Origin: Nitrospiraceae bacterium
Lineage (GTDB): Bacteria; Nitrospirota; Nitrospiria; Nitrospirales; Nitrospiraceae
Length of the DNA: 64,000 bases
Direction of reading: 5' to 3'
Assembly: GCA_019637075.1 (NCBI GenBank)
Contig: JAHBWI010000002.1
Coordinates: forward strand, 744,001-808,000
Under the pieces are notes generated by a model that saw only the letters and a program-made list of their open reading frames with translations, ran no database searches and was not told the origin of the DNA. Below, piece by piece: positions 9,564 through 25,376 of this stretch; within the stretch, counting starts at the first letter, position 1, and each line of letters begins with the position of its first letter. Both the position numbers and the translations under genes were made by a program.

Positions 9564-10535
9564 TCAATTCCCCGCCGGCGCTGAGACGGCGGCGGCCTGC
9601 GCCCCCTTGTCCTGCACGTCCCGCGCACAACGGAAACCCATCCAATTGATCTTGGTATTCGGATCCGTTCCATTCCTCATCGCAGCGCGCATGGTCGTAG
9701 TGCTGTCCATCCAGCCGCCGCCACGAAAGGCCTTTTGTGTCCCACTATTAGGCCCCTTCGGATTTCGGTCCGGGGCGCTCTTGTAATAATCCTGGTCATA
9801 CCAGTCGTTCACCCACTCCGAAACGTTACCCATCATCTGGTAAAGGCCGTAGGGGCTCACGGCATTGTCATACTTGTCCACGGAAATAAGGGGTGGATAC
9901 AGCAGAAGCCGCTCCGGACGGTCACGCACAGGACCCGACAGACCGGTCCTACCGAAATTCGCGCGAGTCAACCCCGCAGACTGATTACCCCAGGGATTCA
10001 GGCGACCGTCTTCACCTCGAGCCGCCTTCTCCCATTCCGCCTCGGACGGCAAGCGCTTGCCTGCCCAGCGGCAGTAGGCATCAGCGTCGAACCAGGACAC
10101 ATGCATGATGGGATGGTTGGCCATCGTGTCCTGGAAATTGCCGCCGTCGTATCGCCAATCAAGCTGCGGGTTTCGCCCAGTCGACAAGATGAACTTCATA
10201 TAGTGGAGGTTCGTCACCTCGTACTTATCAATCTCATAGGCATCCAAGTAGACCTTTCGCTGCGGCAGTTCGGAACGGTAGGCCACGCGGTCAACCTTCT
10301 TGTCGCTGCCCATAAGGAACTCGCCGGCGGGAATGAGAACCATCTCTTCCTTCGGCGTCCAGGTACGAACCCGCTCCTCGGCCAACTTGCGCCCTTCCGG
10401 GGTGAATTCAACGATGATATCTTGCGTGTCCAGCCCCCAGACCGCGTTGGCCAGGGAAAGGATCGCTGCTCCAGCCAGGAGCGCGTTTACTACCCATTCA
10501 ATCCGTCTTGTCTGCCTCTGCGCCTGCGACTGCAT
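9564..10535 (-). CDS. FGE-fold (SUMF1-like) periplasmic protein, first of a tandem pair
   Basis: A 323-residue exported protein of the formylglycine-generating-enzyme fold. After a signal or anchor helix (about residues 15-35) come the family marks VLIPAGEFLMGSD, VYLDAYEIDKYEVTN, HPIMHVSWFDADAYCRWAGKR, LPSEAEWEKAARG, GNVSEWVNDWY, FRGGGW and GFRCARD. True FGE needs two cysteines between FRGG and GFRC; here that stretch (STTTMRAAMRNG) has none, so sulfatase activation is unlikely. Non-catalytic relatives include NirV beside copper nitrite reductase. Start ATG at 10535 follows AAAGGAGG. It lies 48 bases after its paralogue in a run of genes ending at the multicopper oxidase, so a role with that oxidase is plausible. 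Confidence 0.88.
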   Translation of the reverse strand: MQSQAQRQTRRIEWVVNALLAGAAILSLANAVWGLDTQDIIVEFTPEGRKLAEERVRTWTPKEEMVLIPAGEFLMGSDKKVDRVAYRSELPQRKVYLDAYEIDKYEVTNLHYMKFILSTGRNPQLDWRYDGGNFQDTMANHPIMHVSWFDADAYCRWAGKRLPSEAEWEKAARGEDGRLNPWGNQSAGLTRANFGRTGLSGPVRDRPERLLLYPPLISVDKYDNAVSPYGLYQMMGNVSEWVNDWYDQDYYKSAPDRNPKGPNSGTQKAFRGGGWMDSTTTMRAAMRNGTDPNTKINWMGFRCARDVQDKGAQAAAVSAPAGN

Positions 10536-10583
10536 TTTCGGCCTCCTTTGAAGTATCTCCACACGGTGAATCATCACGGGCGA

Positions 10584-11507
10584 TCAGGGGATCGCCTCCG
10601 GCCTGCGTGACGCTTCCCGTTTCACGCTCAAGGTTTCCTGCGCATTCTGCGCGCATCGAAATCCGGTCAGGTAACTCCGTCTTCCCGGTTCGCCGCCGTT
10701 ACGGCCAGCTGACCGAGCCACTTCCGGATCCTCATTCCATGAACCGCCTCGAAACACCCGCAACTCTCCCGTCTCAGGCCCTTTCGGATTACGATCCACG
10801 CCCTTGCGGTAGTACTCCGGATCAAACCAATCCGCGACCCACTCACTCACATTGCCGGCTAGCTGGTAGACCCCATACGGGCTGACACCTTTGTCGTAGC
10901 GATTGATGTTGGCAAGCGGCGGATACTTGGCGCCGCGCTTCGATCCCGGGTGAGCGATGTTGCTCTTGATCCAACCGGCTGGTTCGTCGCCCCAGGGAAA
11001 CATTCGACCATCCTCGCCTCGCGCGGCCTTCTCCCATTCCGCCTCGGTCGGCAACCGTTTGCCCGTCCAACGGCAGTAGGCATGCGCGTCTTCCCAACTG
11101 ACATTGATGACCGGGTGCAGTGCCATCTTGTCCGCGAAGGGTTTGGCTCGCCAGAACTGCGGCCAGTCGGCTCCGGTGGCGAGCACATAACGCAGGTACT
11201 CCACATTCGACACTTCGAACCGATCGATCGTGAACGCATCGAGATAGACGCGATGCTGCGGGAACTCCTGCGGACCGGCTGCCCGATCTTTGCGAGGATC
11301 GCTTCCCATCAAAAAATCTCCGGCAGGGACCAGCACCATCCCCCCCGGTGCCTCCAGCGTCGCCATTTGCTCGACCTCATCGACGGGCGTCCATAGCGGC
11401 GGCTGTTTCGCCGATTCATGGTTGGCACGCGCGGTCGGCGCGAAGGTGCCCGCGAGCGCACAACCGACAATGACACATGAAAACACGAACCACCTGCACT
11501 TAGTCAT
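10584..11507 (-). CDS. FGE-fold (SUMF1-like) periplasmic protein, second of a tandem pair
   Basis: A 307-residue paralogue of the neighbouring gene. Signal peptide about residues 1-28 (cleavage near ARANHE), then VLVPAGDFLMGSD, VYLDAFTIDRFEVSN, HPVINVSWEDAHAYCRWTGKR, LPTEAEWEKAARG, GNVSEWVADWF, FRGGSW and GFRCAQN. As in the other copy, the region that should hold the catalytic cysteine pair (NEDPEVARSAGRNGG) contains none. The fold is therefore probably used as a binding module or for another chemistry. It is 16 bases downstream of the cupredoxin-like gene, which suggests co-transcription. The two FGE-fold proteins could form a heterodimer; this is inference. Confidence 0.88.
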   Translation of the reverse strand: MTKCRWFVFSCVIVGCALAGTFAPTARANHESAKQPPLWTPVDEVEQMATLEAPGGMVLVPAGDFLMGSDPRKDRAAGPQEFPQHRVYLDAFTIDRFEVSNVEYLRYVLATGADWPQFWRAKPFADKMALHPVINVSWEDAHAYCRWTGKRLPTEAEWEKAARGEDGRMFPWGDEPAGWIKSNIAHPGSKRGAKYPPLANINRYDKGVSPYGVYQLAGNVSEWVADWFDPEYYRKGVDRNPKGPETGELRVFRGGSWNEDPEVARSAGRNGGEPGRRSYLTGFRCAQNAQETLSVKREASRRPEAIP

Positions 11508-11523: not shown

Positions 11524-12522
11524 CTAGTTCCCTTTATGCCCTTGTTTTTCCAGCAACGGATCGATTTCCTTCTTCGCTTCCTCGGTCACGTTATAGCGGG
11601 TGTAGGCGTGTTCCAAGACCTCGTTGGCGTACAGCCGTCCGGTGGGCGCCGGAATCGCCAGAGTGGCGTCGACGGTCCCGTTCGGACCAATAGTGACGGT
11701 TTGTTCCGTCGAGGTCCGGATATAGGGATGCCAGACCACCAGCTTGTACGTACCAGGAGGGATATCGCCGATCGTAAACCGGCCCTGGTCGTCCGTCTTG
11801 GCAAAATAGGGGTTCATGACGGCCACACCCCAGCTCTCCATATACGCATGGAAGCCGCATTGCATGACAAAAACTCTCCGCCCCTTGCTGAGATTGACCA
11901 ACTGCTTCATCGGCGGCCCAGCCATGTGCTTGTGATACATCCCGGCTTCGCTCCGATCTTTGAAGTTGCGTGGATGCTGCGGATTCATCGGCAGCGGGAC
12001 ATTGAACAAGACGCGCGCGCCCAAGTTCGACGTCTCATAGGCCTGGATATCGTGCATGACGGGATCCATGTTCACCACCGTCACGGATTGATCGTCGCGC
12101 ACTACAGTCGTGAAGGGAAGGAAGAGGCAATCCTTCGCTTCGATCTGCGGCACGCCCCCTTCCTCGAATGGTTTCCCTTTCTCTACTCCTTCGAGATACA
12201 CCACCACCTCGCGGAATTCGCCGCCTGATCCGACGTTAAAAGGCTGCAGAATGCGCCATCCCTCCCCATCGGAGATGCGGCCGCAATAGAACGGGTCCGG
12301 CAGGGTCGTCAGGTTGTACCCTTTTGGCTTGGGGACGGCCCCGACAAGCTTGACGGTCCCGTGCAAAGTCCCTCCATCGATCACTTTAGTCTCTTCATAG
12401 GCACCGACTGGGGGCGCCACGATGCTTACCAATGCAAAATGGAAAACTGCCAATACATATAACGGGATTGCGCACTTTTTCATTTTGCACTTGCTCTCGA
12501 TGATTCCGTTTGATGCTTTCAC
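11524..12522 (-). CDS. Exported cupredoxin-like protein with carboxypeptidase-regulatory-like domain
   Basis: A 332-residue exported protein. I place the start at GTG 12522, since AGGAGGCCGAAA directly precedes it, the same Shine-Dalgarno context seen before the first FGE-fold gene. A signal peptide follows (hydrophobic about residues 17-40). The first half has a cupredoxin-like layout with possible copper ligands His (DPVMHDIQAY), then Cys, His and Met in QCGFHAYME. The second half (about 250-310) has the DDQGRFTIGDIPPGTYKLVVWHP pattern of a carboxypeptidase-regulatory-like fold. It could be a periplasmic copper or electron-carrier protein for the oxidase. It lies after the oxidase terminator, so it may have its own promoter. 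Confidence 0.75.
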   Translation of the reverse strand: MKASNGIIESKCKMKKCAIPLYVLAVFHFALVSIVAPPVGAYEETKVIDGGTLHGTVKLVGAVPKPKGYNLTTLPDPFYCGRISDGEGWRILQPFNVGSGGEFREVVVYLEGVEKGKPFEEGGVPQIEAKDCLFLPFTTVVRDDQSVTVVNMDPVMHDIQAYETSNLGARVLFNVPLPMNPQHPRNFKDRSEAGMYHKHMAGPPMKQLVNLSKGRRVFVMQCGFHAYMESWGVAVMNPYFAKTDDQGRFTIGDIPPGTYKLVVWHPYIRTSTEQTVTIGPNGTVDATLAIPAPTGRLYANEVLEHAYTRYNVTEEAKKEIDPLLEKQGHKGN

Positions 12523-12610
12523 TTTCGGCCTCCTCGGTGATTGGTCCAACCGCTTTCGCTCCCTAATGGGCCATGATACATGGACTCAATCATCGATTCC
12601 TATCAAAGTC

Positions 12611-12681: not shown

Positions 12682-15600
12682 TTACTTCATGGCGGTTGGA
12701 ATGGCCTGCGGCTGAGGCGCCACTTCCGCTTGGCGCGCCCCGGTTCCGCCGGCGCTCAGAGACTGAATCCGGGAGTCGCCAGCCGGCAACACACGGAGGT
12801 AGCCCCACTGTCCGGACTGCGTGTAGGGCAGCCGCTGGTTGGACCACACGAAGTCTCCGACCTGGCGATACGGACCGCCCGCACCGCCGCGGAGGAAGAC
12901 ATCGAGGGTTTCAGACCCGGCATACTCCACCACGCTGATCATGTCGGCACCCGGCATGTACGGCTCGATCGGCCACTCGTGGCCCTCGATGCCGAACATT
13001 CCGTTCTGTTCGCTGTTCGCGCCGACCACGTGGATGCGGACCGGGTCACCCGCGTGCGCCTCGATCAACGGCGTCACGGGATCCTCGGGCTTATCCACCT
13101 TGCACGGCTGGAAGATCTTGCCCAGCGAGCAGCCTTCTTCCTCACGGAACTTGTACGGTTCCGCGCGGTAGTTGACCGACGTCAATCCGGCTACGTTCTG
13201 CACGTACGGCATGAACGCGGTTCCGATGATGTTGTCCTCGTCCTGGAAGAACAAGGCCACGTCACGGTAGTTCCGCTTGCCGACGTTCTCCGGCAGGCTG
13301 GCGTCGACGATGACATCCGCACGCCAGGTATTCTTCAACGATACATCCGCACCGGTCACCGGGTCGCGGTACTGCGAACCCTTCGGACCGATCACGATCG
13401 CGCCGTACAACCCGTTGCGCGGGTTGACCACGATATTACCGCCGTCCCACACCAGGGAGGTCGTCTCCTTGTTGGCGGGATGCGCATAATAGGTGTAGTT
13501 CCGGCTTTCGCCCGGACCCACGGTCTGATCGCCGCCGTTGTTGCCGACGTTCAGGCCCTGGCTGTCTCGCGGATCGAAGGCAAGGCCCGGGACGAAGAAC
13601 GACGCCCGGCTGGCCTTCATCTTGTTCTTCAGAGTCACCTTGATGCAGTCGCCCAAGTTCGCACGCAGCGTGAGCGGATTCGGCATCACGTTGCCCGCGA
13701 CCGTGGCGGCCTCTTCCTCGAGCGCGAAGATCTTGCCTTCCGGCATGGTCATTTCAATCTTACGCTCGAAGTCCACTTCGATGGCATCCGGCGCCTTCGG
13801 ATTGAGCTTCATCGGGCGATCCAACGCCACCACGTTGAAGTTCTTCACCGGGGCGTCCGACGGACACACCGAGCTCGGCGTGGCAGGGATCCCGAGCGGG
13901 TTGGTACCCTTCGGGAGCGGCATCAGATCCGCAACCTGCTTGTCGAGCACGCGGACGATACCCCATCCACCTTCGGCGAAGTGCGAGCTCCGGCCGTTGA
14001 AGTGGATGTAGTCGCCCGGCATACCCTGGAATCCACCCGCCTTGGTGACGAGGTCATACCGCTCGGCGATACCGACGTGAATCGAGTACTTCCGGTTGGC
14101 ATCCGCCGCATACCGCTCCGTGAGGAAGGTATGGCCGGCGATCGTCCAGACGTGAGATTCGTTCATCAGCTGGTGCAGCAGACGGAACACCATCGTGTCA
14201 CCCGTGTAGGCCCGCAAGAGGGGCGTGTCCGGGTCACCGTGGATCGCGCTGCTGAACAGCTTCGATGTGTCAGGATTGTTTGAGAGGCGCTGCGCAAACG
14301 GTTCCGCGCGGAAATTGAAACCGCTGCCGGTCGTGTGCGTACCACCGTTGATGTACTTGTTCGGCGCGTTCAAGATCTTATCGGGCATCTGGAACGACAC
14401 CGTCTTACCTGCTTCCAACGCCACTTCGATCGGCTGTCCAGGAGGATTGCCGGCTTCAATGACGTTGACCGTGTGGGGCACCGTGTCGTGGATGGAGACC
14501 ATCAACTCACGGAAGCTGCCGCTCACACCGGCACCGATCGGCTCATTCGTATGGATGTCCGCAACCGGTCCGCTCCAAACGAGCTTGCCATTCTTCGGAT
14601 CGTGATAGGTGGACCCGAACGGCTCCACGATCGTCACGCCGAACCCGCCATGCGGCCAGGTCGTCGCGCCGAACGCGTGGTCATGCCAGAACACGGTCCC
14701 CAAATCCACGTCCACCCACCACCGATACCGGACGAACTCCGGCGACACGAGGTCGTTGGCCGGGTGGTTGTTCTTCAACGGCTTGAAGAAGGTCACCTGG
14801 TCGCCCTTGATTTCCTTGATGCGGGCGACTTCGGAGCAACTCTTGTCCCGCGCCAAGGAGGCCGTCGGGTCGTTGCCCTTTTCCAAGCAATCCATGCCCA
14901 CCATGAGTTCGGTGTTGGGATGGAACTTTGATGCACCGGGAGCCATCTCGATCTTGATCGAGGTCGCTCCGGCTTTCGCTCCACCGACGACCTTGGCGAC
15001 CATCGGAGCAGGCAAGCCGTGCTTGGTCTTCTTGCCCCACATAGTGAAGGGGCGAACGGACATCTCATACTCCATGCCCGAGATCACTCCGTCCGAGTTC
15101 CCTGTATCGAACTGGAAGAAGTGCGGGTGGATGTTGATCTTCGACGACTGGAAGTTCGTGTAGTCGTCGTCGTCCCACTCGCTGGTCAAAAGTATGTCGA
15201 CGCAGTCATACACGTTGGCGCGAATGACAGCCGGCAACTTGAGATCGTCGTTGGCACGCGTGAGGTTTTCTTCCTCATGCAGCAAGTAGATCAGACCGTC
15301 CTTGTCCGTGATGGCCGGCTCTTTCCCTTGCTTCTTGGCCAGGGTGATCGGCATGCGGACAAAGTGAATGTTGTAATGCTTCCGATTGGCGTTGTCAGGG
15401 CACAGGCTCCAACGACCCTGTTCGCCCGGCATCGCCGGCTCGGAGGTCCGCTCACCGTTGGCATCCTGGTGAATCGGCTCCAACCATGGCGCACCGCTGT
15501 GGTTCGCAGAGAACGGCACGCGCTTGCCGAAGTGCGGCTTGAACAACGGCCAGGCCATTTTTCCCGTCGTCGGATCGAACAGGATCGCCGGTCTGGTGCT

Positions 15601-17619
15601 GTCATCCCACTTGGCCGCCCATGGATACTTCGGATTCTGGGCCGTGCTCTCCCGCTCACCGCGGGCGATGTTGCCGTCCCACTTCCAGTCCCACACCGTC
15701 GAGTCATAGGCCATGATCTGGCCCTTCTCATCGTTGGTGTGGCCCGGTTGACCCTGAGCCGGCACGAACATTTCCACCCAATCCTTGATGTTCACGATCA
15801 CAGGATCGGACTTCCAGTTCGTCTTCTGGCTCTTGTCGACGATCTTGAAGGTCTTGCCGAACCAGTCGACCGTGGTGCCGATCAACTTATCCGACGAGAC
15901 ACCCTGCTTCATGCGGCCCTTGCGATCCGGCAATTCCTGCAAGTCCGGCATCGTGTCGGTGTGCGCATTGCCGACCTGCAACGTATTGTAGAACCGGCCG
16001 TACCCCCACATGCCCGCCACATAGTGGTGCGCCACGTGGCAGTGATAGAGGAATTCGCCGGCCAGGTGCTGACAGCCACCGCCGCCGCATTCCGGCTCCA
16101 GGTCCAAGGCTTCCGACGGACCGATGACTTCCACGTCGACCCGATCCGACTTCGTCCGGACCACCGGATACTTCACCGGACCGTCCTGACCCATCGCCCA
16201 CATGTTGTTGGGCTCGGTCACCGGGCTGCGCTGCCAACGGATGGTCCCGCTGTGCGGATGGTGGGAGTGGAATACTTCCGACCCGCCATGGACCACCCGC
16301 CACTTCACCGGCTCCCCGAGGTAACCGCGGGCAATCGTGGTGGGCGGGTCACCGAAGGTGTAGGCGCTGTAGGCCAGCGATTCATCTTCGAAACCGAAAT
16401 ACTCATGCTGCAAATGCATCTGATCGATGCCGAACGGCTCGCTGCGATAGTTCAACGCGCGGCCGCCCGGACGATAGGCGTCCGTCAGCGGATCGCGCTG
16501 CGGCAAGAAGTCACCCTTCTTGTTCAGCGGACGGAAGGCTTCGTCGCCGATTTCGTGATAGAACAACACGAACTCGCGGAAGTCCGGTCCCGACCCGTTA
16601 TCGATGTTGACCTGCCAACCGCTCTTCACTTCCTTGTCAGGCCCGCTGCCTATGGAGTCGAAGTACTTCGAGCCCTTCGGCTCGACGATGAAGGCCCCGA
16701 AGAGACCCAAGACCGTCAACTCGCGGTCATGGCTCCAGGAGTGGAACTGACGCACACCTTCCTGCATGTTCGGATGGATGTACCATTCGAACTCCTGGCT
16801 CTTGCCCGGGGACACGATGGCATCCGGGTTCGTGGTCGTCGCCGGCTTGCCGGTCGAGCTCACGATCATGCTGGAGGCCTGGATGAACAAGCTGCCATCC
16901 TCGCCTTCCATCTGGTTGCGCAGCGTCATCTTGACGCAGTCACCCTGGTTGGCGCGCAAGACCAGCGGCTGAATCACGTCGCCCTGCAACCCGGTTGTCA
17001 CGGCTCCCGGATCAAAGCCATCTTTCTCTCTGGACGCTTTGTTTTTCGCTTCCTCGGCGCGGGCCTGGTCGACATCCTCGGTATGGACATACATGTACCC
17101 GGGATAATAGTCCAACCAGCGGTTCAACGTGACCTCGATGTTGATCATCGAGACGTCGTACTTCTTCACCGGCGCATTGGCAGGACATTTCCCGCCGGAC
17201 GTCAACACCGGTTCGCCCTTACTCGAGTCCGACATGAGCAGGAAGCTGCTGCCGTCCTGCCCCATGTACTGGTGCATCATCGACATGTCGTTGAACGCAC
17301 CCGACGTCGGTTGAGCCTGCCCATCCTTGTAGGCCTGCTCCTGGAGCTTCTCCATCAAACGATGGTGCTGCAGCTCCATCTTCTCCGAGCGATCAGGACG
17401 CCCTTCGATCGTGTCCTCCACGACTGTCTGACCCTTCAGGGCCTGAGTCCAACCCGGCATCGAGACGGGCTTCGCATGTCCATCATGCGACTGATCTCCC
17501 GGCCCGGCCGCAAATAACCACGGCGTCGCGAGCAAGCTGCTCGTCAGAAACGCCGCTTGCAAGCCCAGCGTCGTACGACGCCGGCGCCTGCGCTGGGATG
17601 AGTACCATGAAGACCTCAT
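12682..17619 (-). CDS. Giant multicopper oxidase, 1645 residues, motif order C-D-A-B (MnxG-like)
   Basis: Exported multicopper oxidase built from many cupredoxin-like units. It has an Arg-rich start, a signal peptide to about residue 38, and the four HxH-type copper motifs once each: FHSHHPHSG (450-458, type C), FLYHCHVAHHYVAGMWG (523-539, type D with the type 1 copper Cys527), HPHFFQFD (831-838, type A) and FWHDHAFG (977-984, type B). Ordinary laccases run A-B-C-D, so the order here is permuted. The remaining units (about 1100-1645) lack full ligand sets. Very long multicopper oxidases include Mn(II) oxidases (MnxG, Pseudomonas McoA/MnxG), so oxidation of Mn(II), Fe(II) or another metal is possible, not shown. 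A strong AAGGAGGGAGG lies before the ATG. Regulation appears to involve sigma-54 and a structured leader. Confidence 0.93.
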   Translation of the reverse strand: MRSSWYSSQRRRRRRTTLGLQAAFLTSSLLATPWLFAAGPGDQSHDGHAKPVSMPGWTQALKGQTVVEDTIEGRPDRSEKMELQHHRLMEKLQEQAYKDGQAQPTSGAFNDMSMMHQYMGQDGSSFLLMSDSSKGEPVLTSGGKCPANAPVKKYDVSMINIEVTLNRWLDYYPGYMYVHTEDVDQARAEEAKNKASREKDGFDPGAVTTGLQGDVIQPLVLRANQGDCVKMTLRNQMEGEDGSLFIQASSMIVSSTGKPATTTNPDAIVSPGKSQEFEWYIHPNMQEGVRQFHSWSHDRELTVLGLFGAFIVEPKGSKYFDSIGSGPDKEVKSGWQVNIDNGSGPDFREFVLFYHEIGDEAFRPLNKKGDFLPQRDPLTDAYRPGGRALNYRSEPFGIDQMHLQHEYFGFEDESLAYSAYTFGDPPTTIARGYLGEPVKWRVVHGGSEVFHSHHPHSGTIRWQRSPVTEPNNMWAMGQDGPVKYPVVRTKSDRVDVEVIGPSEALDLEPECGGGGCQHLAGEFLYHCHVAHHYVAGMWGYGRFYNTLQVGNAHTDTMPDLQELPDRKGRMKQGVSSDKLIGTTVDWFGKTFKIVDKSQKTNWKSDPVIVNIKDWVEMFVPAQGQPGHTNDEKGQIMAYDSTVWDWKWDGNIARGERESTAQNPKYPWAAKWDDSTRPAILFDPTTGKMAWPLFKPHFGKRVPFSANHSGAPWLEPIHQDANGERTSEPAMPGEQGRWSLCPDNANRKHYNIHFVRMPITLAKKQGKEPAITDKDGLIYLLHEEENLTRANDDLKLPAVIRANVYDCVDILLTSEWDDDDYTNFQSSKINIHPHFFQFDTGNSDGVISGMEYEMSVRPFTMWGKKTKHGLPAPMVAKVVGGAKAGATSIKIEMAPGASKFHPNTELMVGMDCLEKGNDPTASLARDKSCSEVARIKEIKGDQVTFFKPLKNNHPANDLVSPEFVRYRWWVDVDLGTVFWHDHAFGATTWPHGGFGVTIVEPFGSTYHDPKNGKLVWSGPVADIHTNEPIGAGVSGSFRELMVSIHDTVPHTVNVIEAGNPPGQPIEVALEAGKTVSFQMPDKILNAPNKYINGGTHTTGSGFNFRAEPFAQRLSNNPDTSKLFSSAIHGDPDTPLLRAYTGDTMVFRLLHQLMNESHVWTIAGHTFLTERYAADANRKYSIHVGIAERYDLVTKAGGFQGMPGDYIHFNGRSSHFAEGGWGIVRVLDKQVADLMPLPKGTNPLGIPATPSSVCPSDAPVKNFNVVALDRPMKLNPKAPDAIEVDFERKIEMTMPEGKIFALEEEAATVAGNVMPNPLTLRANLGDCIKVTLKNKMKASRASFFVPGLAFDPRDSQGLNVGNNGGDQTVGPGESRNYTYYAHPANKETTSLVWDGGNIVVNPRNGLYGAIVIGPKGSQYRDPVTGADVSLKNTWRADVIVDASLPENVGKRNYRDVALFFQDEDNIIGTAFMPYVQNVAGLTSVNYRAEPYKFREEEGCSLGKIFQPCKVDKPEDPVTPLIEAHAGDPVRIHVVGANSEQNGMFGIEGHEWPIEPYMPGADMISVVEYAGSETLDVFLRGGAGGPYRQVGDFVWSNQRLPYTQSGQWGYLRVLPAGDSRIQSLSAGGTGARQAEVAPQPQAIPTAMK

Positions 17620-17847
17620 ATGTCGGCCTCCCTCCTTGTATTTCCCGCACCCTTACCGCGGGAGTGGTTAAGAAACTTGGTCGTGTGACCGGCCTCCGTC
17701 AGGAAGGATCCCGGCTGCTCCGGCCTCTCTTGACTTTCCCCCACGAAATACAACTCAAGGAAAGTAAGAGCTGGTGAAGGATTCCCTCTTGCGAGAGAGC
17801 AGGTCATTCGGAGGCCGGTCCTAATCACCCGCACCTTCACCAGCGGT
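17620..17847 (-). promoter_or_regulatory. Structured 5' leader of the multicopper oxidase mRNA
   Basis: If transcription starts near 17847, the leader is about 228 bases. Arm P1 CTGGTGAAGG (17843-17834) pairs perfectly with CCTTCACCAG (17780-17771). Inside that loop, GACCGGCCTCCG (17820-17809) pairs over 12 bp with CGGAGGCCGGTC (17698-17687), which lies outside P1, giving a pseudoknot-type layout. The same inner segment can alternatively pair over 8 bp with GAGGCCGG near 17730. A 63-codon frame (ATG 17808, TGA overlapping the oxidase ATG) also crosses the leader but has no Shine-Dalgarno site. It fits no riboswitch class I recognise. Confidence 0.55.
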
Positions 17848-17858
17848 CTCTTCCTACC

Positions 17859-17873
17859 GCAACAGCTGTGCCC
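17859..17873 (-). promoter_or_regulatory. Sigma-54 type promoter for the multicopper oxidase
   Basis: Minus-strand GGGCACAGCTGTTGC matches TGGCAC-N5-TTGC except for the first base, with GG and GC doublets at exact spacing. It faces the oxidase gene. A sigma-54 activator gene lies immediately upstream, and a palindrome sits about 160 bases upstream. Confidence 0.6.
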
Positions 17874-18029
17874 GAATGTAGCATAAAATATAAATAGAAA
17901 TTTTTTGTCGTAGTTTCCAACACTTGAATGTGCAGATGAATCACGAGTTGGGAAAACCCTACGCCGCACAAATCCACAGCACTAGACACTCTTAGAGATA
18001 TCGTATTAGGCACAACGAAATATCAACGA

Positions 18030-18061
18030 GTTACACCGTCTAAACACTTAGACAGTGTAAC
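18030..18061. promoter_or_regulatory. Palindromic candidate enhancer site upstream of the oxidase promoter
   Basis: Arms GTTACACCGTCTAA (18030-18043) and TTAGACAGTGTAAC (18048-18061) are inverted copies with one mismatch, separated by ACAC. The distance to the sigma-54 element (about 160 bases) is typical of activator sites. A weaker related sequence, ctagacactcttaga, lies near 17981-17995. The rest of 17874-18159 holds nothing else recognisable. Confidence 0.55.
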
Positions 18062-18159
18062 GCATAATTTGGGGATGTATGCTACATGGCACAGGGCATT
18101 ACCGCACAAGGAATGTCGGATAAATACTTACAGGAGGACGACTGCGAGAAAGGACAAAG

Positions 18160-19551
18160 CTACTGAATATCGTATTCGCGGAGCTTGTTATAGAGACTGG
18201 CGCGACTGATTTTGAGCAAGCGCGCTGCCTTCATGCGATTGCCAGCGGCTTGCTGCAATGCTTGCAAAATTCTCGTTCGCTCAACCTGCCGGACTGCCCC
18301 ACGGGAAGCTGCGCGAAGGTCCACACCCTCGGTCGTACTCTTGCCCAAAAGATCCCTGCAGGGCAGATCCGTCCCTGTAGTCGTGACGACGGCACGTTCG
18401 ATGTAGTGCTGCAACTCCCGCACATTGCCGGGCCAGGCAGCGCTCGTCAAGGCGCGCATGGCGTCATCACCCACGTCCCGAGCCGGCTGGCGATGCCGCG
18501 CACAAGAATCCGCCACAAATCGCCTCACAAGCAATGGGATATCACTGCGCCGGTCGCGCAACGGCGGCAAATGAAGCGGCAGCACCGCAAGGCGATAGTA
18601 GAGGTCCTGCCGAAAGGCCTTCATCTTGACTAGCTCGGCCAGATCCTTGTTGCTGGCCGAAATAACGCGCACGTCGATCTTGATGGATTGCGTGCCACCG
18701 ACCCGCTTGATCTCGCCTTCCTGGAGCACACGAAGCAATTTGGCCTGGAACGTCGGAGTCGTGTCCGCGATCTCATCCAGGAACACCGTGCCGCCGTCGG
18801 CTTCCTCGAACAGCCCTCGCTTGGCACTGCTGGCTCCTGTAAATGCGCCTTTGACGTGGCCGAACAATTCGCTTTCCAGCAGTGTCTCGGGAAGGGAGCC
18901 GCAATCCACGACCACGAAGGGTTTATCCCGCCGGTAGCTTGTCTTATGGATGGTTCTGGCGACGAGCTCCTTACCGGTTCCGCTTTCACCCTGAATCAGA
19001 ACAGTGGCCGAGCTGTCTGACACTAACGTGATCATATCGAACAACTGCCGCATGCCCGGGCTGCTACCGATCAACTCCCCAAGGCCCTCAGAACGTCGCT
19101 CGGGGCGCCTGGTTCCCTCCATCGGCTCAGGAATGGGCAAGGAAGTAACGGTACCACTCGGCGGCTGCCGAAATAAAACCAGCACCATCCCGACTTCGCC
19201 GTTGCTCGACGTCAAAGGTAACGCCTGGTACATGCCGCAAGGGGTAGCTGCCGCAGCAACCGATTTCGCTGCCTCCTGGGAGTCAAACACCGAGGTCGCC
19301 GGGCAGGCACTGCAGTGGTCTTGGAGTTGGACGAAGGCTTCGTAACACTTGGCAGGGCGTTCGCCTGATTCGCCGGGATTGGTCCGACCCCAGGCCGCTT
19401 CATTAGCATAGATCACGTTGAACTCGCGATCCATCACGGCGACCTGATCCTTCATACCTCCGGCGAGTTGCATGAGGGCATCGACACGGGCAGCCAAAAT
19501 CGGATCACTAAACGCACTTTTGCCGCTATGCTCCGGCCGGGCATCGGTCAT
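18160..19551 (-). CDS. Sigma-54 enhancer-binding protein with Cys-bearing PAS domain
   Basis: A 463-residue transcription activator that hydrolyses ATP to open sigma-54 promoters. The N-terminal PAS domain (about residues 22-130) carries Cys69, Cys80, Cys83 and Cys105 (KCYEAF, DHCSACP), suggesting a metal, cluster or redox sensor rather than a phosphorylated receiver. The AAA+ domain has GESGTGKE (188-195), a perfect GAFTGA (235-240) and VFLDE (256-260). A Fis-type helix-turn-helix ends the protein (AARLLKISRASLYNKLREY). AAGGA precedes the ATG. It lies upstream of the oxidase leader on the same strand, about 540 bases from the oxidase start, and is the best candidate for its activator. The receiver gene upstream probably shares its transcript. 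Confidence 0.92.
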   Translation of the reverse strand: MTDARPEHSGKSAFSDPILAARVDALMQLAGGMKDQVAVMDREFNVIYANEAAWGRTNPGESGERPAKCYEAFVQLQDHCSACPATSVFDSQEAAKSVAAAATPCGMYQALPLTSSNGEVGMVLVLFRQPPSGTVTSLPIPEPMEGTRRPERRSEGLGELIGSSPGMRQLFDMITLVSDSSATVLIQGESGTGKELVARTIHKTSYRRDKPFVVVDCGSLPETLLESELFGHVKGAFTGASSAKRGLFEEADGGTVFLDEIADTTPTFQAKLLRVLQEGEIKRVGGTQSIKIDVRVISASNKDLAELVKMKAFRQDLYYRLAVLPLHLPPLRDRRSDIPLLVRRFVADSCARHRQPARDVGDDAMRALTSAAWPGNVRELQHYIERAVVTTTGTDLPCRDLLGKSTTEGVDLRAASRGAVRQVERTRILQALQQAAGNRMKAARLLKISRASLYNKLREYDIQ

Positions 19552-19641: not shown

Positions 19642-20067
19642 TCAGGGGGCGACTCCCGGTCTCCTCGCTTCCGGACTTCCGCTCAAATCCCCCCTTTGCT
19701 CCCCGGTTCCATTCGGCTGCCGATCAAGCAGCTGCCGCACCAGCAATTTGAGTTCCGCCAGCCTCACCGGCTTGTCCACATAGGCACTCGCCCCGCTCCT
19801 CAGTGCCTCGGCTTTGGTGTGGGGCTCGCCGAAAGCCGTCATGACGATTATCGGGCAATCCGGGGCAAAAGTCCGTAGCCGGTGGATATAGTCAAATCCC
19901 CCCGCCGGCATCTTGAGGTCGGTCACGATGAGGTCAGGCACCGTCGTCAATATCGATTCGAGCCCTTCGTGACCATTTGCCGCTTCCCGTAACTGGTAAC
20001 CGTCCCCCCACAGTTCGTCGCAGAGCAAACTGCGCATAGCTTCGTCATCTTCCACAATCAGCACCAC
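19642..20067 (-). CDS. Response regulator receiver protein (single domain)
   Basis: A 141-residue protein with one CheY-like receiver: acidic pocket VEDDEA (residues 5-10), phospho-acceptor Asp50 in IVTDLKM, conserved Thr in VMTAFG and Lys in YVDKPV. There is no output domain; a short polar tail of about 20 residues follows. I take GTG 20067 as the start because GGGAGG lies 9 bases upstream; the longer frame adds 37 poorly plausible residues. It precedes the PAS activator by 90 bases on the same strand. It may shuttle phosphate, for example from the nearby histidine kinase, or act by protein contact. Confidence 0.85.
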   Translation of the reverse strand: MVLIVEDDEAMRSLLCDELWGDGYQLREAANGHEGLESILTTVPDLIVTDLKMPAGGFDYIHRLRTFAPDCPIIVMTAFGEPHTKAEALRSGASAYVDKPVRLAELKLLVRQLLDRQPNGTGEQRGDLSGSPEARRPGVAP

Positions 20068-20130
20068 AGCCGTTCGCCTCCCTTCCACAATGAGCTCCCT
20101 TTGCTGACGGCCTCTGGGGAAAGTGCGTTC

Positions 20131-20145
20131 GCAAGGGATATGCCA
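20131..20145 (-). promoter_or_regulatory. Sigma-54 type promoter for the receiver/activator genes
   Basis: Minus-strand TGGCATATCCCTTGC matches the consensus TGGCAC-N5-TTGC with one change (T for C) and exact spacing. It sits about 64 bases before the GTG of the receiver gene. This makes the activator operon itself a candidate sigma-54 target. Confidence 0.6.
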
Positions 20146-20448
20146 TTGATAGATCTCATGGTGCCCAAATAAATCCATGATTTTTCAGGAATACTGAGGG
20201 CGAGGCTGGCTGTAGGATTTTCCCTAGCTGGCGACAAAGACCCCAATGGAGACGCCGCGCTGTTGCGGGCCGCCACAGTGAGTCGGAAGGGCTGATGGCT
20301 TATCGCATACGGCAGATGCCAAGAGCTACCGGCAGAATAGGAAACGGCTTATAGAGGGCATAAGCGGCAAACTTTCAAGATCGATCGGTACCTAGGCTTC
20401 GATCATTCGTTCGCGCTGCAAGCCATCGGCTGTCGGGTTTGCCAGAGG
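20146..20448. other. Intergenic region with a repeat copy
   Basis: Between the kinase end and the receiver promoter. It holds a diverged copy of the dispersed repeat (gctgatggcttatcgcatacg at 20291-20311). No gene is seen. Confidence 0.5.
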
Positions 20449-23400
20449 CTATAGGCCCTTATGTATCGGCAGGCTGATCGTGAACGTCGTGCCCCGGTTC
20501 GGCTCGCTCTCGACCACAATGGTACCTTGATGCTCCTCGATAATCCCCTTCACCACTGTAAGCCCCAAGCCGGTCCCCTTCCCGAATTCCTTGGTGGTAA
20601 AGAATGGGTCGAAGATCTTCGCAATGACGTCCTTCGGAATGCCGTGACCGGTATCGGATACCGTCAGCAACACTCGACCGCTCGCGGGCGTAAGCCCGAT
20701 GCGCAGGGTGCCTCCGTCCGGCATTGCATGGATGGCATTCATCACTAGATTAATCAACACCTGGCTCATCTGGTCGGGATCGGCATGCACGGGCGGGCAG
20801 GAATCCGGAAACGAGACCTCAAGCCGTACTTGCGCCCGGGCCAAACGTTCTTCAAAGATTTCGAGGTTGTCTTCGATGGTTCCCTTCAGGTCGAGAGATC
20901 GGCGCTCCGGCGTGCGGCGCCTGGCAAACGACAATAACTGGTTCATCACTCTGGTAATCCGCTCGACCTGCCCCACGATCGTCTGCAATCCGCGCTTGAT
21001 CGGTTCTTCCTTGACCCGCTGCATCAAGTACTCGGCTCGGCCGAGAATTACATTCATTGGCGTCCCAATCTCATGGGCCATACCTGAGGCTAACGTGCCC
21101 AATTCGGCGATGCGCTCGGTCCGTCGAAGTTGCTCTTCGAGGTTCCGTTGATCGGTTACGTCGACACAAGCCCCGATCGCGTGCAGCGGCCGGTCCTCGG
21201 CATCGACCGCCACTTGGCCGCGATTGCGGAACCATCGGATCTCGCCGTCCCCTCGAATGATGCGATGGGTCACGTCGTAGATGCGCGTCACCTCGATCGC
21301 CTCGGCCCAGGCCTGCGCGCAGGCCGCCCGATCCTCGGGATGGATTCGCCCTATGAAATCCTCCAACGGCTGAGAACTTTCCACTGGCAGCAGCCCCAAC
21401 ATTCTATTCAGGCCCGAGTCGCGGGTATCCATTTTGGTCTTCAGATCGACCATCCACGTGCCGACATTGGCCGCAGCGATGGCGGATTGCAGGCGGGCCG
21501 CACTGGTTCGCAAGGCTTCCTCAGTCTTCTTCCGCTCCGTGATATCGCGCACGATCGCCGCCACTCCCGCCGGCCTTCCATCCTCGCCCTTGACGGCAAA
21601 CACCGTCAAACTCACCGGAATGCGCGAGCCGTCCCTCTGGACATACACTTTTTCGTATTCCCTCGGCTCTCCGGTCTTCAGAACGCCCGCGATCACTTCC
21701 GCCTGAATCTCCCGATACTCCGGCGGAGTCAGATCGCGGTACGTGCGGGTCAAGAGTTCCTGCTTTGAATAGCCGGTCAGGCGGGCAAAGGCATCGTTTG
21801 CCAGCACGAAGGTGCCGTCGAGAGAGGCATACCCGATCGCATCTTTCGACGCCTCAAAGATATCTTCGAATCGCTCCTCCGCTCCCCTCAGTGCCTGCTC
21901 GGCCGTTCGTTTTTCCGTCACGTCCGCAGCAACCCCATCGATTCGGAGCGCCTGCCCCTGCTCGTCTCGAATGATTCGGCCGCGGTCCCTGATCCATCGG
22001 ATGCCGCCATCCGGCCGAACGATGCGATATTGCACGTCAAAAGCACGGCCTTCTGCCGTGTCCCGTATCGCTGCCTCCGCGATCAACCGATCGGCAGGAT
22101 GAATCATGTCGATCCACAGGGATGGATGGACGATAAAGTCGGCCGAGGCGACGCCGTATATCTTCATCACGGCAGGGCTCACGTACAGCACTTCCGAGAA
22201 ATCCAGCGAGCTCGACCAGACGACTTCCTCCATTGAGTTGAGGATATTCTGGAGTCGCTCCTCGCTTAGGGAGAGCGCCGATTCGACGTCCTTCCGCGTC
22301 GTGATATCCCGCGTGACTCCGAGCACGCCGGTGATCGCCCCCCGTACATCACGCAGCGGCACCAGGTGAGTTTCAAGCCAGCGGCGGGCCCCTTTCAACC
22401 CGACCATTTGAAACTCAAGCACGCCGGTCTCTCCGCGAGCCGCTCGCCCGGTCAACTCGGCGAAGGCAGACCGAAACGCCGGCGTGACCAACTGGCAGAC
22501 GTCCTTTCCCACGATTTCCTCGGTGGTCCCCGCCTCTACCATGGCCAACCCGGCCAGATTCATCGACCGCACCGTCCCGTCGAGATTCAAGACCTTCACG
22601 CACTCCGGCTCCGTCTCGATGATCGTCCGCAGAAGCGATTCACGCTCTTCCAAGTCCCGTTGAAGCCGCTTCCGCTCCGTGATGTCGACGATGGCCGCCA
22701 ACACCCGCAGACCGTCCTTCGTCCGAATCGGATTCAACCCGATCTCGATCGGAAACACCGTGCCGTCACGGCAAAGTCCATTCAGTTCGCGTCCGCCCCC
22801 CATCTGTCTGGCTTGAGGCTCGGCCATGAATCGCGCTCGAAGCGCCCCATGACTGTCCTTGGCGACGTCGGGCACGAGGATTTCCACCGAGCGGCCGATC
22901 AGTTCATCACGGGTATAGCCGAACAATCTTTCGACCTGCGCGTTGACGAGTTGGATCGTCCCTTCTTCGTCGATCAACACCATGCCGCTTGGCGCCGCTT
23001 CGACCGCGACCCGAAACTGCTCGGTCAGGCGGTTGCGCTCGGTAACGTCGCGGGTGACCTTCGCAAACCCGGTCAGATGTCCCTGCGCATCGCGTAGCGC
23101 CGTGAGCGCAACGTCGGCAAAGAACTGCGTCCCATCCTTCCGAACCCGCCATCCCTCATCGACCACATGCCCGTCTTCCTTCGCCCGTTGAAGCAACAGG
23201 TCCGGATGCCCGACCGCTCGGTCCTCGGCACGATAAAACCTGGAAAAGTGGCGGCCGATGATTTCCTCCGCCTCATACCCCTTAAGCCGCTTGGCACCTT
23301 CATTCCAGGTGACGACCACCCCCTCGGGATTCAACAAGAAAATCGCGTAGTCGCGCACTCGATCAACCAGTTGCCGGTAGACCTCGTCGCGAGCTTCCGG

Positions 23401-23742
23401 CCGCGGCTCGACTTGCTGCCGCGATCGGTCGTGTCCTCTCAGCAACCACACGAGCCCCCATATCACGAGGATGCCAAGCCCGCGGTTCCACAGCGTCAAG
23501 CGGAATGCAGGTTCGCCGGCGGACAGGTAGCCTCCCAGGGCGATCAAGACCGTCAGGCCGGCCGCAAACTCATAGGGTGAACGGCGTGGAACCGAGCGCA
23601 GGGCAACAACGAGCGGGAGAAGATACAGCAGCCAGGCCGCCCAGCCAGGCGGTGCAGACACGTCGATGATGAAGATGGAGCAGGTCAGCAGAAGGAGAGC
23701 GCTGACCGAGAAGGCGATCGGGGTATTGGAGCGCAACGTCAC
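20449..23742 (-). CDS. Membrane-anchored multi-PAS sensor histidine kinase
   Basis: A 1097-residue kinase. The N-terminus has about four hydrophobic helices (residues 8-105). At least six PAS-type sensor units follow in series between about 125 and 860; recognisable starts include [58 protein letters not shown] and [15 protein letters not shown]. The HisKA dimerisation box is [14 protein letters not shown] (phospho-acceptor His). The ATPase domain shows [34 protein letters not shown]. No receiver is fused. The GTG start at 23742 lies 33 bases after the NtrC-type gene, so the two are a likely operon and cognate pair. The signal is unknown; stacked PAS domains suggest redox or small-molecule input. 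Confidence 0.93.
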
Positions 23743-23775
23743 GGGCTGGTTACATCCGAGAAATCCTTCGTTATG

Positions 23776-25152
23776 TTACTCGTGAGCTTTCTCTTGTTCA
23801 ATCTCCCCCAACTTGCGATAGAGGGTCTTGCGGTCGATGCCGAGCACGTGCGCCGCCTGATACTTGTTGCCTCCGGTTTTCTCGAGAATTTTGAGGATGT
23901 ATTCCTTCTCGACTTCGTGCAACGGCAGAGTCCGTTCGGCCGCTTCGTCCAAGACACGGCGATCGCCCCGCGCCCCCTGGATAGCCGGCGGGAGATCATC
24001 CGCGACGATCTTTTCGCCCCGGCTGAGCGTCACCGCCCGCTCGATGACATTCTCCAATTCCCGCACGTTCCCGGGCCAGGCATAGTCGACCAGCATGGCC
24101 AACGCAGCCTCGCTGACCGCCTTCACCTGCTTTCCACGAACCTCGCCGCACTTCTTCAGGAAAGCCTCGACCAGAAGCGGAATGTCCTCCCGCCGCTCAC
24201 GCAGGGGCGGCAATTTCAGCTCAATGACATTGAGTCGGTAATAGAGATCTTCCCGGAACCGCTTGCTTTTCACTTCCTCGGGCAAATGGAGATTGGTCGC
24301 GGCGATGATTCGCACATCCACGGAGATCGGTTTGTTCGCCCCGACCCGTCGAATCTCCTTTTCTTGAATCGCCCGCAACAATTTGGCCTGGAGCATGAGC
24401 GGGAGCTCGCTGATTTCGTCCAGAAACAGGGTGCCCTTCTGAGCCTCCTCGAACAACCCTCGCTTGTCCATCTTCGCATCGGTGAAGGCGCCCCGCATGT
24501 GCCCGAACAATTCGCTTTCCAACAATTGTTCGGGAATCGCGGCGCAGTTCACCGGCACGAACGGCGCATCCCGCCGGTCGCTGTTGTAATGAATGGCCTT
24601 GGCCACCAGCTCTTTTCCGGTTCCGCTTTCGCCGGTGATCAACACGTTCGTGGGGCCGTCGGAGACGCGTCGAATCAAATCGAACACGTCCTGCATCGGC
24701 TTGCTCTTTCCGATGATCTGATGGAAGCTGTACTCCTTGTGCACTTCCTTCCGCAGCCGGCCCACTTCCCGGCGAAGCGACGCCTCGCGGATGGCGCGTT
24801 CGACCACCCGCACCAGCTCCTCGGTTTTGACCGGCTTCGTCAGGTAATCGCTCGCGCCACGCTTCATGGCATCCACGGCCGTCTCGACCGAACCGAACGC
24901 CGTCATCAGAATGACTCCGATATCGGGATAGGCCCGGCGAATCTCCGTGAGGAGCTCCGTGCCGAGCATGCCCTTCATGCGCAGATCGGTCAGCACCACC
25001 GCAAAATCCTGCTCCGCAAGCTGACGAAGCGCCTCGTCGCCGCTCCCGACCGAGACACACTGGTGCCCTCGATCCTGCAATACATCACAGACGAGGCTCC
25101 GCATCTCTGCGTCGTCGTCAACCACCAAAACTGCGCCCCACTCCTCCGTCAT
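23776..25152 (-). CDS. NtrC-family sigma-54 response regulator with GAFTDA loop
   Basis: A 458-residue regulator with a receiver domain (phospho-acceptor Asp56 in VVLTDLRM, Lys107 in YLTKPV), AAA+ domain (GESGTGKE 174-181, Walker B TLFLDE) and a Fis-type helix-turn-helix (AAHVLGIDRKTLYRKLGEI). The sigma-54 contact loop reads GAFTDA (221-226) instead of the canonical GAFTGA. I start at ATG 25152; a TTG 33 bases earlier would add 11 residues. The histidine kinase follows directly. Divergently, a sigma-54 type promoter faces the MacA-like gene, so the pump is a likely target. Confidence 0.93.
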   Translation of the reverse strand: MTEEWGAVLVVDDDAEMRSLVCDVLQDRGHQCVSVGSGDEALRQLAEQDFAVVLTDLRMKGMLGTELLTEIRRAYPDIGVILMTAFGSVETAVDAMKRGASDYLTKPVKTEELVRVVERAIREASLRREVGRLRKEVHKEYSFHQIIGKSKPMQDVFDLIRRVSDGPTNVLITGESGTGKELVAKAIHYNSDRRDAPFVPVNCAAIPEQLLESELFGHMRGAFTDAKMDKRGLFEEAQKGTLFLDEISELPLMLQAKLLRAIQEKEIRRVGANKPISVDVRIIAATNLHLPEEVKSKRFREDLYYRLNVIELKLPPLRERREDIPLLVEAFLKKCGEVRGKQVKAVSEAALAMLVDYAWPGNVRELENVIERAVTLSRGEKIVADDLPPAIQGARGDRRVLDEAAERTLPLHEVEKEYILKILEKTGGNKYQAAHVLGIDRKTLYRKLGEIEQEKAHE

Positions 25153-25376
25153 GCTTCCATCCTGTGTTTCGATCACGTCGTCCAAGATTCCCCTTACAGG
25201 TGAAACCAGCTGCTCACCCTACCCAGCTTTTCGCGAGGCGGTCAAGGGGCAGGCTGCCGCAGGGGAAACAGCCGGACTGTCGCCAAATGCCCCAGTCGCT
25301 GTCACGGCGTCACCGGCACTTCTTCACGCTCTGCCTCATCATCCTCGCTTCCGCCCATGTTCCTGGTGAACGGGAA

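Follow-up and report, generated by a model that had tools for sequence, protein, structure and literature searches.

A sigma-54 promoter and a structured leader RNA upstream of a giant multicopper oxidase gene in Nitrospiraceae: a candidate two-layer control module with a paralogous target

The window analyzed in this study, a stretch of 64,000 nucleotides from a Nitrospiraceae bacterium, contains the gene of a long multicopper oxidase, MCO1, preceded on the minus strand by the gene of an enhancer-binding protein, EBP1, and a gap of 540 bp (Table 1). The question raised by this locus is how the oxidase is controlled. A first-pass annotation had described a complete sigma-54 circuit, composed of a promoter element, a palindrome and the activator gene. 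In the present study, this circuit was strongly supported by phylogenetic footprinting and by the co-occurrence of the activator with a leader RNA, but as an account of the locus it was incomplete, because a second operator, the structured leader RNA itself, and the complementarity of this RNA to the ribosome-binding sites (RBSs) of the operon and of a paralogous oxidase gene, MCO2, had been missed. With a probability of roughly two in three, we favor a two-layer control module in which an EBP1/sigma-54 promoter would be combined with a leader RNA acting on RBSs in cis and in trans.

The host genome comprises 4.06 Mb in 22 contigs, and among named organisms the closest matches to the oxidase locus belong to Nitrospira, the members of which are major nitrifiers (e.g., Candidatus Nitrospira defluvii, 91% protein identity). 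MCO1 reached 113 bits against the NCBIfam MnxG model (NF041487), which has a curated cut-off of 3100, and is thus a relative of MnxG only. Relatives of MCO1 were found in 146 of the 147 family genomes and in 80 named loci. The operon is likely to extend from MCO1 through P6 and FGE1 to FGE2. The two adjoining FGE-sulfatase-like proteins (9564-11507) were encoded beside the oxidase in most relatives read and are possibly assembly or modification factors.

Table 1. Positions in the window of the genes and regulatory features discussed in the text.
Feature	Position	Strand	Basis or remarks
FGE2, sulfatase-modifying-factor-like	9564..10535	-	RBS GGAGGCCGAAA-ATG, GGAGGCCG at 10539; ATG start is the author's reading
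FGE1, sulfatase-modifying-factor-like	10584..11507	-	start without GGAGGCC
P6, CarboxypepD_reg protein	11524..12522	-	RBS GGAGGCCGAAA-GTG, GGAGGCCG at 12526; GTG start is the author's reading
MCO1, 1645-aa MnxG-related multicopper oxidase	12682..17619	-	Pfam Cu-oxidase_3
MCO1 ribosome-binding site GAGGGAGGCCG	17624..17634	-	complementarity to the RNA loop over 8 nt
Mid-leader CGGAGGCCGGTC, complementary to the loop region over 12 nt	17687..17698	-	100% complementary to 17809-17820
Leader RNA, helices P1, P2 and P3; 5' end at the predicted transcription start	17770..17844	-	covariation, model R1
Invariant loop GGACCGGCCTCC	17810..17821	-	leader comparison
Sigma-54 -24/-12 element GGGCACAGCTGTTGCG	17858..17873	-	consensus match and conservation
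Second, weaker operator TGTCTAGTGCTGTGGATT	17971..17988	-	conservation across upstream regions
Palindromic operator	18030..18061	.	14-nt arms 93% complementary, 4-nt centre; core 18037-18054
EBP1, PAS-AAA+-HTH enhancer-binding protein	18160..19551	-	Sigma54_activat, AAA+ lid, HTH_8
Single-domain response regulator, neighbor	19642..20178	-	domain search, neighborhood comparison
Multi-PAS histidine kinase, neighbor	20449..23742	-	domain search, neighborhood comparison
EBP2, NtrC-type response regulator, neighbor, rival activator	23776..25185	-	domain search, neighborhood comparison

Promoter, operators and activator

The sigma-54 element upstream of MCO1, GGGCACAGCTGTTGCG, contained a perfect GGCAC-N5-TTGC core and had mismatches at two flanking positions only. 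A consensus scan of the window returned 25 matches with two mismatches or fewer, compared with 27 expected; because a consensus match was thus at background level, the evidence was taken from conservation instead. The regions compared were 66 distinct orthologous MCO1 upstream regions of at least 75% identity, from which 11 duplicates and three regions that were too short or misplaced (L014, L020 and L033) had been left out. The core GGCAY-N5-TTGC was exact in 61 of the 66 regions and was present at a fixed place in all of them when one mismatch was allowed; the GG-N10-GC pattern of sigma-54-dependent -24/-12 promoters was therefore conserved at fixed spacing throughout the set (66/66, one mismatch at most). 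Moreover, the exact composite of upstream operator, spacer and sigma-54 core was found in 73/147 family genomes, and the reversed composite used as a control was found in 0/147. The upstream regions of MCO2, which are paralogous loci of 64-71% identity, contained neither an exact operator nor an exact sigma-54 core. These data bore out the near-consensus element of the first-pass annotation, and the predicted MCO1 promoter is well supported by the comparison.

The palindrome with 14-nt arms upstream of this element also proved real. It was the sole such repeat in the window, none was seen in nine of ten first-order simulations, and it occurred once in the host genome at up to three mismatches. 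The full 32-bp palindrome was rejected as the conserved unit, as only its inner 18 bp, TGTCYA-N6-TRGACA, were kept; outer arms of the GTTACAC type were complete only in the host genome among the loci scanned. The search upstream of homologues that had been suggested earlier thus succeeded for the 18-bp core, hereafter UAS1, which was exact in 45 regions and within one mismatch in 66/66, but not for the outer arms. UAS1 was positioned 177-194 nt upstream of the sigma-54 core in all 66 regions, and a second, degenerate operator, UAS2 (TGTCTAGTGCTGTGGATT in the window), followed 65-69 nt after UAS1 in 58 of them. EBP1 adjoined MCO1 with a gap of less than 800 nt in 42/66 regions and was farther away or out of view in 24, and the operator was present in both sets. 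Matches to the operator core with one mismatch numbered 19 in the host genome, compared with 5 for the reversed control, and were not accepted as a regulon; one of the 19 lies upstream of the MCO3 leader copy.

EBP1 carries the Sigma54_activat domain with GAFTGA and the Fis-type HTH of bacterial enhancer-binding proteins. In an alignment of 25 proteins, limited to those that were complete enough, the GAFTGA loop already noted in the window protein was intact in 20 orthologues and was replaced by GSFTGA in the other 5, and the four cysteines to which attention had been drawn (69, 80, 83 and 105) were present and invariant in 25/25. A receiver (Response_reg) was looked for by Pfam domain search and was not found, which agreed with the earlier description. 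Pfam gave weak scores for the PAS domain (E 0.067 in the window protein, and PAS_4 at E<=0.1 in 14/20 orthologues), and a PDB structure search with a model of the N-terminus, at a low to moderate confidence (pLDDT 67.5), returned mostly PAS domains. EBP1 may thus be assigned to the PAS-type enhancer-binding proteins without a receiver, with weak Pfam scores and a PAS-like fold by structure search. The proposal that EBP1 responds directly to a redox or metal signal is compatible with the four invariant cysteines, which may be ligands of a metal or a cluster or may form a disulfide. EBP1 is also the putative protein that binds the operators. On its far side (19642-25185), EBP1 is adjoined by a response regulator, a multi-PAS kinase and EBP2, and this neighborhood was kept in many relatives.

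The leader RNA and the ribosome-binding sites of the operon

The segment directly downstream of the sigma-54 element was conserved far above its surroundings. When 35 sequences were compared, 91.3% of the cells of the RNA fold were paired, versus 34-55% (maximum 55.2%) in slid controls, and two-sided changes were observed at 12 pairs, amounting to 65 cells. In particular, the 11 bp of helix P1 were paired in 100% of cells, and 7 of these 11 pairs had two-sided changes. Compensatory base-pair changes of this kind are characteristic of a structured RNA, and the predicted structure of the leader is well supported by them. In 66/66 upstream regions, the first base of P1 was 13-16 nt downstream of the C of TTGC. 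The 5' end of the RNA is thus where transcription from a normal sigma-54 promoter would begin, and the transcription start of MCO1 is predicted there. Among the 4227 models of Rfam, none matched the leader RNA, either at the gathering threshold over the window or at E<=5 over 501 nt. The window element scored 93.5 bits against the covariance model R1, which was built with the window copy included. This model detected the leader RNA in 128/147 family genomes. Of 395 genomes of the phylum, 112 contained it, and all of these belonged to the host family or a sister family of the same order. No terminator-like site was detected on 17550-18160. There is thus no indication that the RNA is released as a free small RNA, and the leader does not fall into the class of trans-acting small RNAs with their own terminator.

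The distribution of the leader RNA was closely associated with that of EBP1. Across 147 genomes, including those with the two on different contigs, both were present in 124 and neither in 16; the RNA was present without EBP1 in 4 and EBP1 without the RNA in 3 (Fisher p 4e-15, a value that ignores relatedness and missing contigs). EBP1 was counted as absent where its best E was weaker than 1e-100; G004, which carries a truncated match of 62%, was thereby among the absences. When the comparison was restricted to assemblies of >=90% completeness and <=5% contamination, EBP1 was missing in 8/10 without the RNA and in 2/99 with it.

The loop of helix P2, GGACCGGCCUCC, was identical in all 78 MCO1 leaders examined, and this invariance means that there is no compensatory change between loop and target. 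The complement of the loop begins with a Shine-Dalgarno sequence, and the loop is complementary to GGAGGCCG at the starts of MCO1, P6 and FGE2. For the MCO1 RBS, the duplex with the loop was calculated at -19.3 kcal/mol. GGAGGCC was found near the MCO1 start in 58/66 distinct leaders and in the middle of the leader in 47/66. In a count of GGAGG-type RBSs from 81 sources, CC followed the GGAGG in 59/84 oxidases, 14/20 FGE2 genes and 10/50 P6 genes, compared with 0/4 FGE1 genes and 3/71 other genes; the three EBP and kinase genes in the same count were also without CC. Some other oxidase RBSs, like that of FGE1, do not contain GGAGGCC.

Complementarity to MCO2 and the competing explanations

MCO2 is located on another contig and has no cis element. 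Its RBS, AAGGAGGCCGGTCC-ATG, or AAGGAGGCCGGUCC-AUG as RNA, is an exact 12-nt complement of the loop that ends at the start codon, and the predicted loop-target duplex amounts to -27.3 kcal/mol. Five exact 12-mers were present in the host genome, of which three were element loops and the other two were located in the leader of MCO2. In other genomes, the 12-mer was also met inside unrelated genes, and the reversed 12-mer was not rare either; most of the remaining 12-mer sites, lying inside or near unrelated reading frames, were dropped as chance. A second AAGGAGGCCGGTCC-ATG occurs 300 nt upstream of the MCO2 start (G000:C10:1167-1178; L242:868-879), before an 11-codon frame, and is possibly part of a leader peptide or a decayed duplicate.

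Among 29 MCO2 loci, the target was exact in 19 and also, by a separate scan, in L054, which had been scored off-place; the rest had 1-3 changes. Conserved complementarity to a target RBS thus places the leader among candidate trans base-pairing RNAs. Whether the target decays with the RNA was examined in 30 loci, of which L339 and L341 were excluded as other oxidases with a cis loop and L337 as ambiguous (64%, no target); L338 (63%), which has a near-match at its start, was retained. The target was exact in 10 of 11 genomes with an RNA model match versus 8 of 16 without (p 0.04; 0.11 when L337 is included). Many of the RNA absences look like assembly gaps. In RNA-negative genomes, the target was exact in 6/6 of those with a fragment of another long oxidase and in 2/10 of those without, and the two exact exceptions among the latter were the least complete assemblies (66% and 72%). 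When genomes showing signs of either the RNA or an MCO1 fragment were pooled, the target was exact in 16/17 versus 2/10 (p 0.0002, relatedness uncorrected; 16/18 versus 2/10 and p 0.0005 with L337), under an assembly-gap rule chosen post hoc, after the data had been seen. The match of MCO2 therefore seems to decay in most lineages that apparently lack the RNA, a conclusion that leans on this post hoc rule. The changed targets were spread over five genera (g2, g5, g10, g11 and g22). One genome, G032, has the RNA together with a mismatched target, and since its variant is shared with G052, the latter is not an independent case. In the sister family, the element and oxidase RBSs of the GGAGGCC(GG) type occur in one stretch, with the element approximately 95-190 nt upstream, which suggests that control in cis is the older form and that MCO2, where the match is longer, came under trans control later.

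Comparison of the aligned sequences established the promoter, the operators, the RNA structure, and the complementarity with its phylogenetic behavior, and the following mechanism is proposed. In the first layer, EBP1, as a PAS-type activator of sigma-54 RNA polymerase, would bind the two TGTCYA-N6-TRGACA-type operators approximately 115-180 bp upstream of the -24/-12 promoter and switch on MCO1-P6-FGE1-FGE2. In the second layer, the transcript would start approximately 12 nt after the -12 element with the three-helix RNA displaying the loop, which would pair in cis with the GGAGGCC(G) RBSs of its own operon; the mid-leader copy could bind the loop in competition with the MCO1 RBS and thereby shield the latter. 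In trans, the loop would pair with the exact complement at MCO2 over 12 nt, from the Shine-Dalgarno sequence to the start codon. Occlusion of a Shine-Dalgarno sequence is usually repressive, so that MCO2 would be expected to fall when MCO1 rises. The induction of MCO1 would in this way be coupled to the control of MCO2, most simply by translational repression, as an isoenzyme switch. The leader RNA probably represses MCO2 in trans, where we infer both the pairing of loop and target in the cell and its repressive sign. The more far-reaching statement, namely that a sigma-54-driven leader is a trans antisense RNA that silences MCO2 and controls the RBSs of its own operon, as a switch across Nitrospira-type nitrifiers, is in our judgment an evenly balanced proposition.

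Several other explanations of these data were weighed. The leader might act in cis only, regulating its own operon through the MCO1, P6 and FGE2 RBSs in the manner of a riboswitch or a ribosomal-protein-type leader, and the MCO2 match would then be a relic of an ancestor in which MCO2 itself carried the element. The close arrangement of element and oxidase RBS in the sister family and the 8-nt complementarity of the MCO1 RBS to the loop are in favor of such a reading. In the host family, however, MCO2 is without a cis element, yet its complement is longer, at 12 nt, and has been retained, with changes mostly in genomes that seem to have lost the RNA and MCO1; we regard restriction to cis as unlikely, though a serious contender. 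The operator may alternatively belong to EBP2, which is of the NtrC type and probably driven by the neighboring kinase, in which case MCO1 would be controlled by a two-component system, comparable to that of MnxR in Pseudomonas putida. EBP2, the kinase and the regulator adjoin EBP1 in many loci, but the gene adjoining the operator is EBP1 rather than EBP2, and it is EBP1 that co-occurs with the RNA across genomes, EBP1 alone having been searched genome-wide. Assignment of the operator to EBP2 is also unlikely.

Recognition of the shared sequence by a protein instead of by pairing, whether a CsrA-like protein at GGA or a DNA-binding repressor at GGAGGCCGGTCC, has to be considered because GGA is present in both the loop and the RBS and CsrA prefers GGA motifs, and because the sequence lies just downstream of the promoter at most elements. 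The loop and its targets are complementary and not alike, however, the loop invariably caps an RNA hairpin whose stem covaries, and the targets are in the opposite orientation and end at the start codon, all of which makes this reading very improbable. That the palindrome and the sigma-54 match are mere chance features might be argued from the background frequency of the latter; positional conservation in 66/66 upstream regions and the empty reversed control refute this with near certainty.

Relation to known systems and further copies of the element

The two-layer module resembles several known systems in part. The Qrr sRNAs of Vibrio are activated by LuxO and sigma-54, and as in the arrangement predicted here, a structured regulatory RNA starting at the promoter is transcribed under the control of an NtrC-type activator and sigma-54; the Qrr RNAs are stand-alone sRNAs, whereas the RNA described here is the leader of an oxidase mRNA. 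TyrR, a regulator of aromatic amino-acid genes, recognizes the TyrR box, TGTAAA-N6-TTTACA, an 18-bp palindrome. The operator core is likewise an N6-centered 18-bp palindrome bound, in the TyrR case, by a member of the enhancer-binding protein family, with half-sites that differ from those found here.

According to the passages available, the MnxG/McoA manganese oxidases of Pseudomonas putida and its relatives are under the control of MnxR and sigma-54, and an rpoN insertion in strain MS-1 abolishes Mn oxidation (PMC11930936, PMC11409713). Two long MnxG-type multicopper oxidases, predicted sigma-54 promoters and a sigma-54-dependent activator are, on those passages, common to both systems. The Pseudomonas activator described there is a response regulator, whereas the adjoining activator here is a PAS protein without a receiver; the same passages mention no leader RNA, and the manganese function described there is that of the Pseudomonas enzymes. 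As described in the parts consulted of PMC8079631, SreA of Listeria is a SAM riboswitch that is released by termination and acts in trans on the prfA mRNA, and is thus also a structured 5' leader acting on another mRNA by pairing and masking translation initiation. SreA pairs upstream of the Shine-Dalgarno sequence in that account, whereas the pairing predicted here spans from the Shine-Dalgarno sequence to the start codon and no terminator was found. Rli51 of Listeria, by its description in excerpts of PMC11394854, is another 5'UTR-derived trans-acting sRNA; the likeness lies in the trans role of a 5'UTR RNA, and organism and target differ. Furthermore, post-transcriptional control of a multicopper oxidase through RBS availability is represented by CutF-CutO in the sections covered of PMC10502375. 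There, a local stem-loop is opened by stalling on an upstream peptide, which depends on copper, and no trans RNA is involved in the mechanism as given in those sections.

Sigma-54 control of MnxG-type oxidases, trans-acting leaders and translational control of multicopper oxidases are therefore each already known separately. Within the open-licence literature searched, we encountered neither their combination nor the RNA family nor the paralogue as a target. The portions covered, including those of PMC6606698, also yielded no Nitrospira regulatory RNA and no assignment of function to the giant oxidases of Nitrospira. The module predicts an activator, an operator, a transcription start, a family of leader RNAs not represented in Rfam, targets and partner mutations. 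If true, it would clearly exemplify the control of one mRNA by the leader of a paralogous one, and it offers an entry to the question of when Nitrospira-type bacteria use each oxidase.

Three copies of the RNA were found in the host genome, before MCO1, a 930-aa oxidase (C2:246511) and another oxidase (C2:239191). The 930-aa oxidase (L164:8863-13642, host C2) has its own sigma-54-type regulator pair and kinase upstream and the same promoter-RNA architecture. Of 27 further element matches examined, L176 (E 0.097) was set aside, which left 26 credible copies; a sigma-54 core was present 27-29 nt upstream in 20 of these and GGAGGCC just before the start codon in 18. Nearly all the RNA copies read precede MnxG-related oxidase genes, the exceptions being L172, with no oxidase downstream, and L342, in which the oxidase start is frame-broken or truncated.

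Additional sites were observed in genus g18. An exact GGAGGCCGGTCC is situated just upstream of EBP1 in L245, L277 and L278, approximately 160 nt before the start in L245, and is possibly a feedback target of the RNA; GGAGGCCGGTCC was not present upstream of EBP1 in the host genome. The GGAGGCCGGTCC sites in L244, L252, L256 and L279 were considered as sponge hairpins and rejected, since they are element-like loops on the other strand, which precede a further oxidase gene by the author's opposite-strand reading. The hairpins in these four loci are simpler, with the loop AGGACCGGCCTCC or close to it before that other oxidase gene, and they occur singly or in tandem approximately 104 nt apart, as a second structural class of the element.
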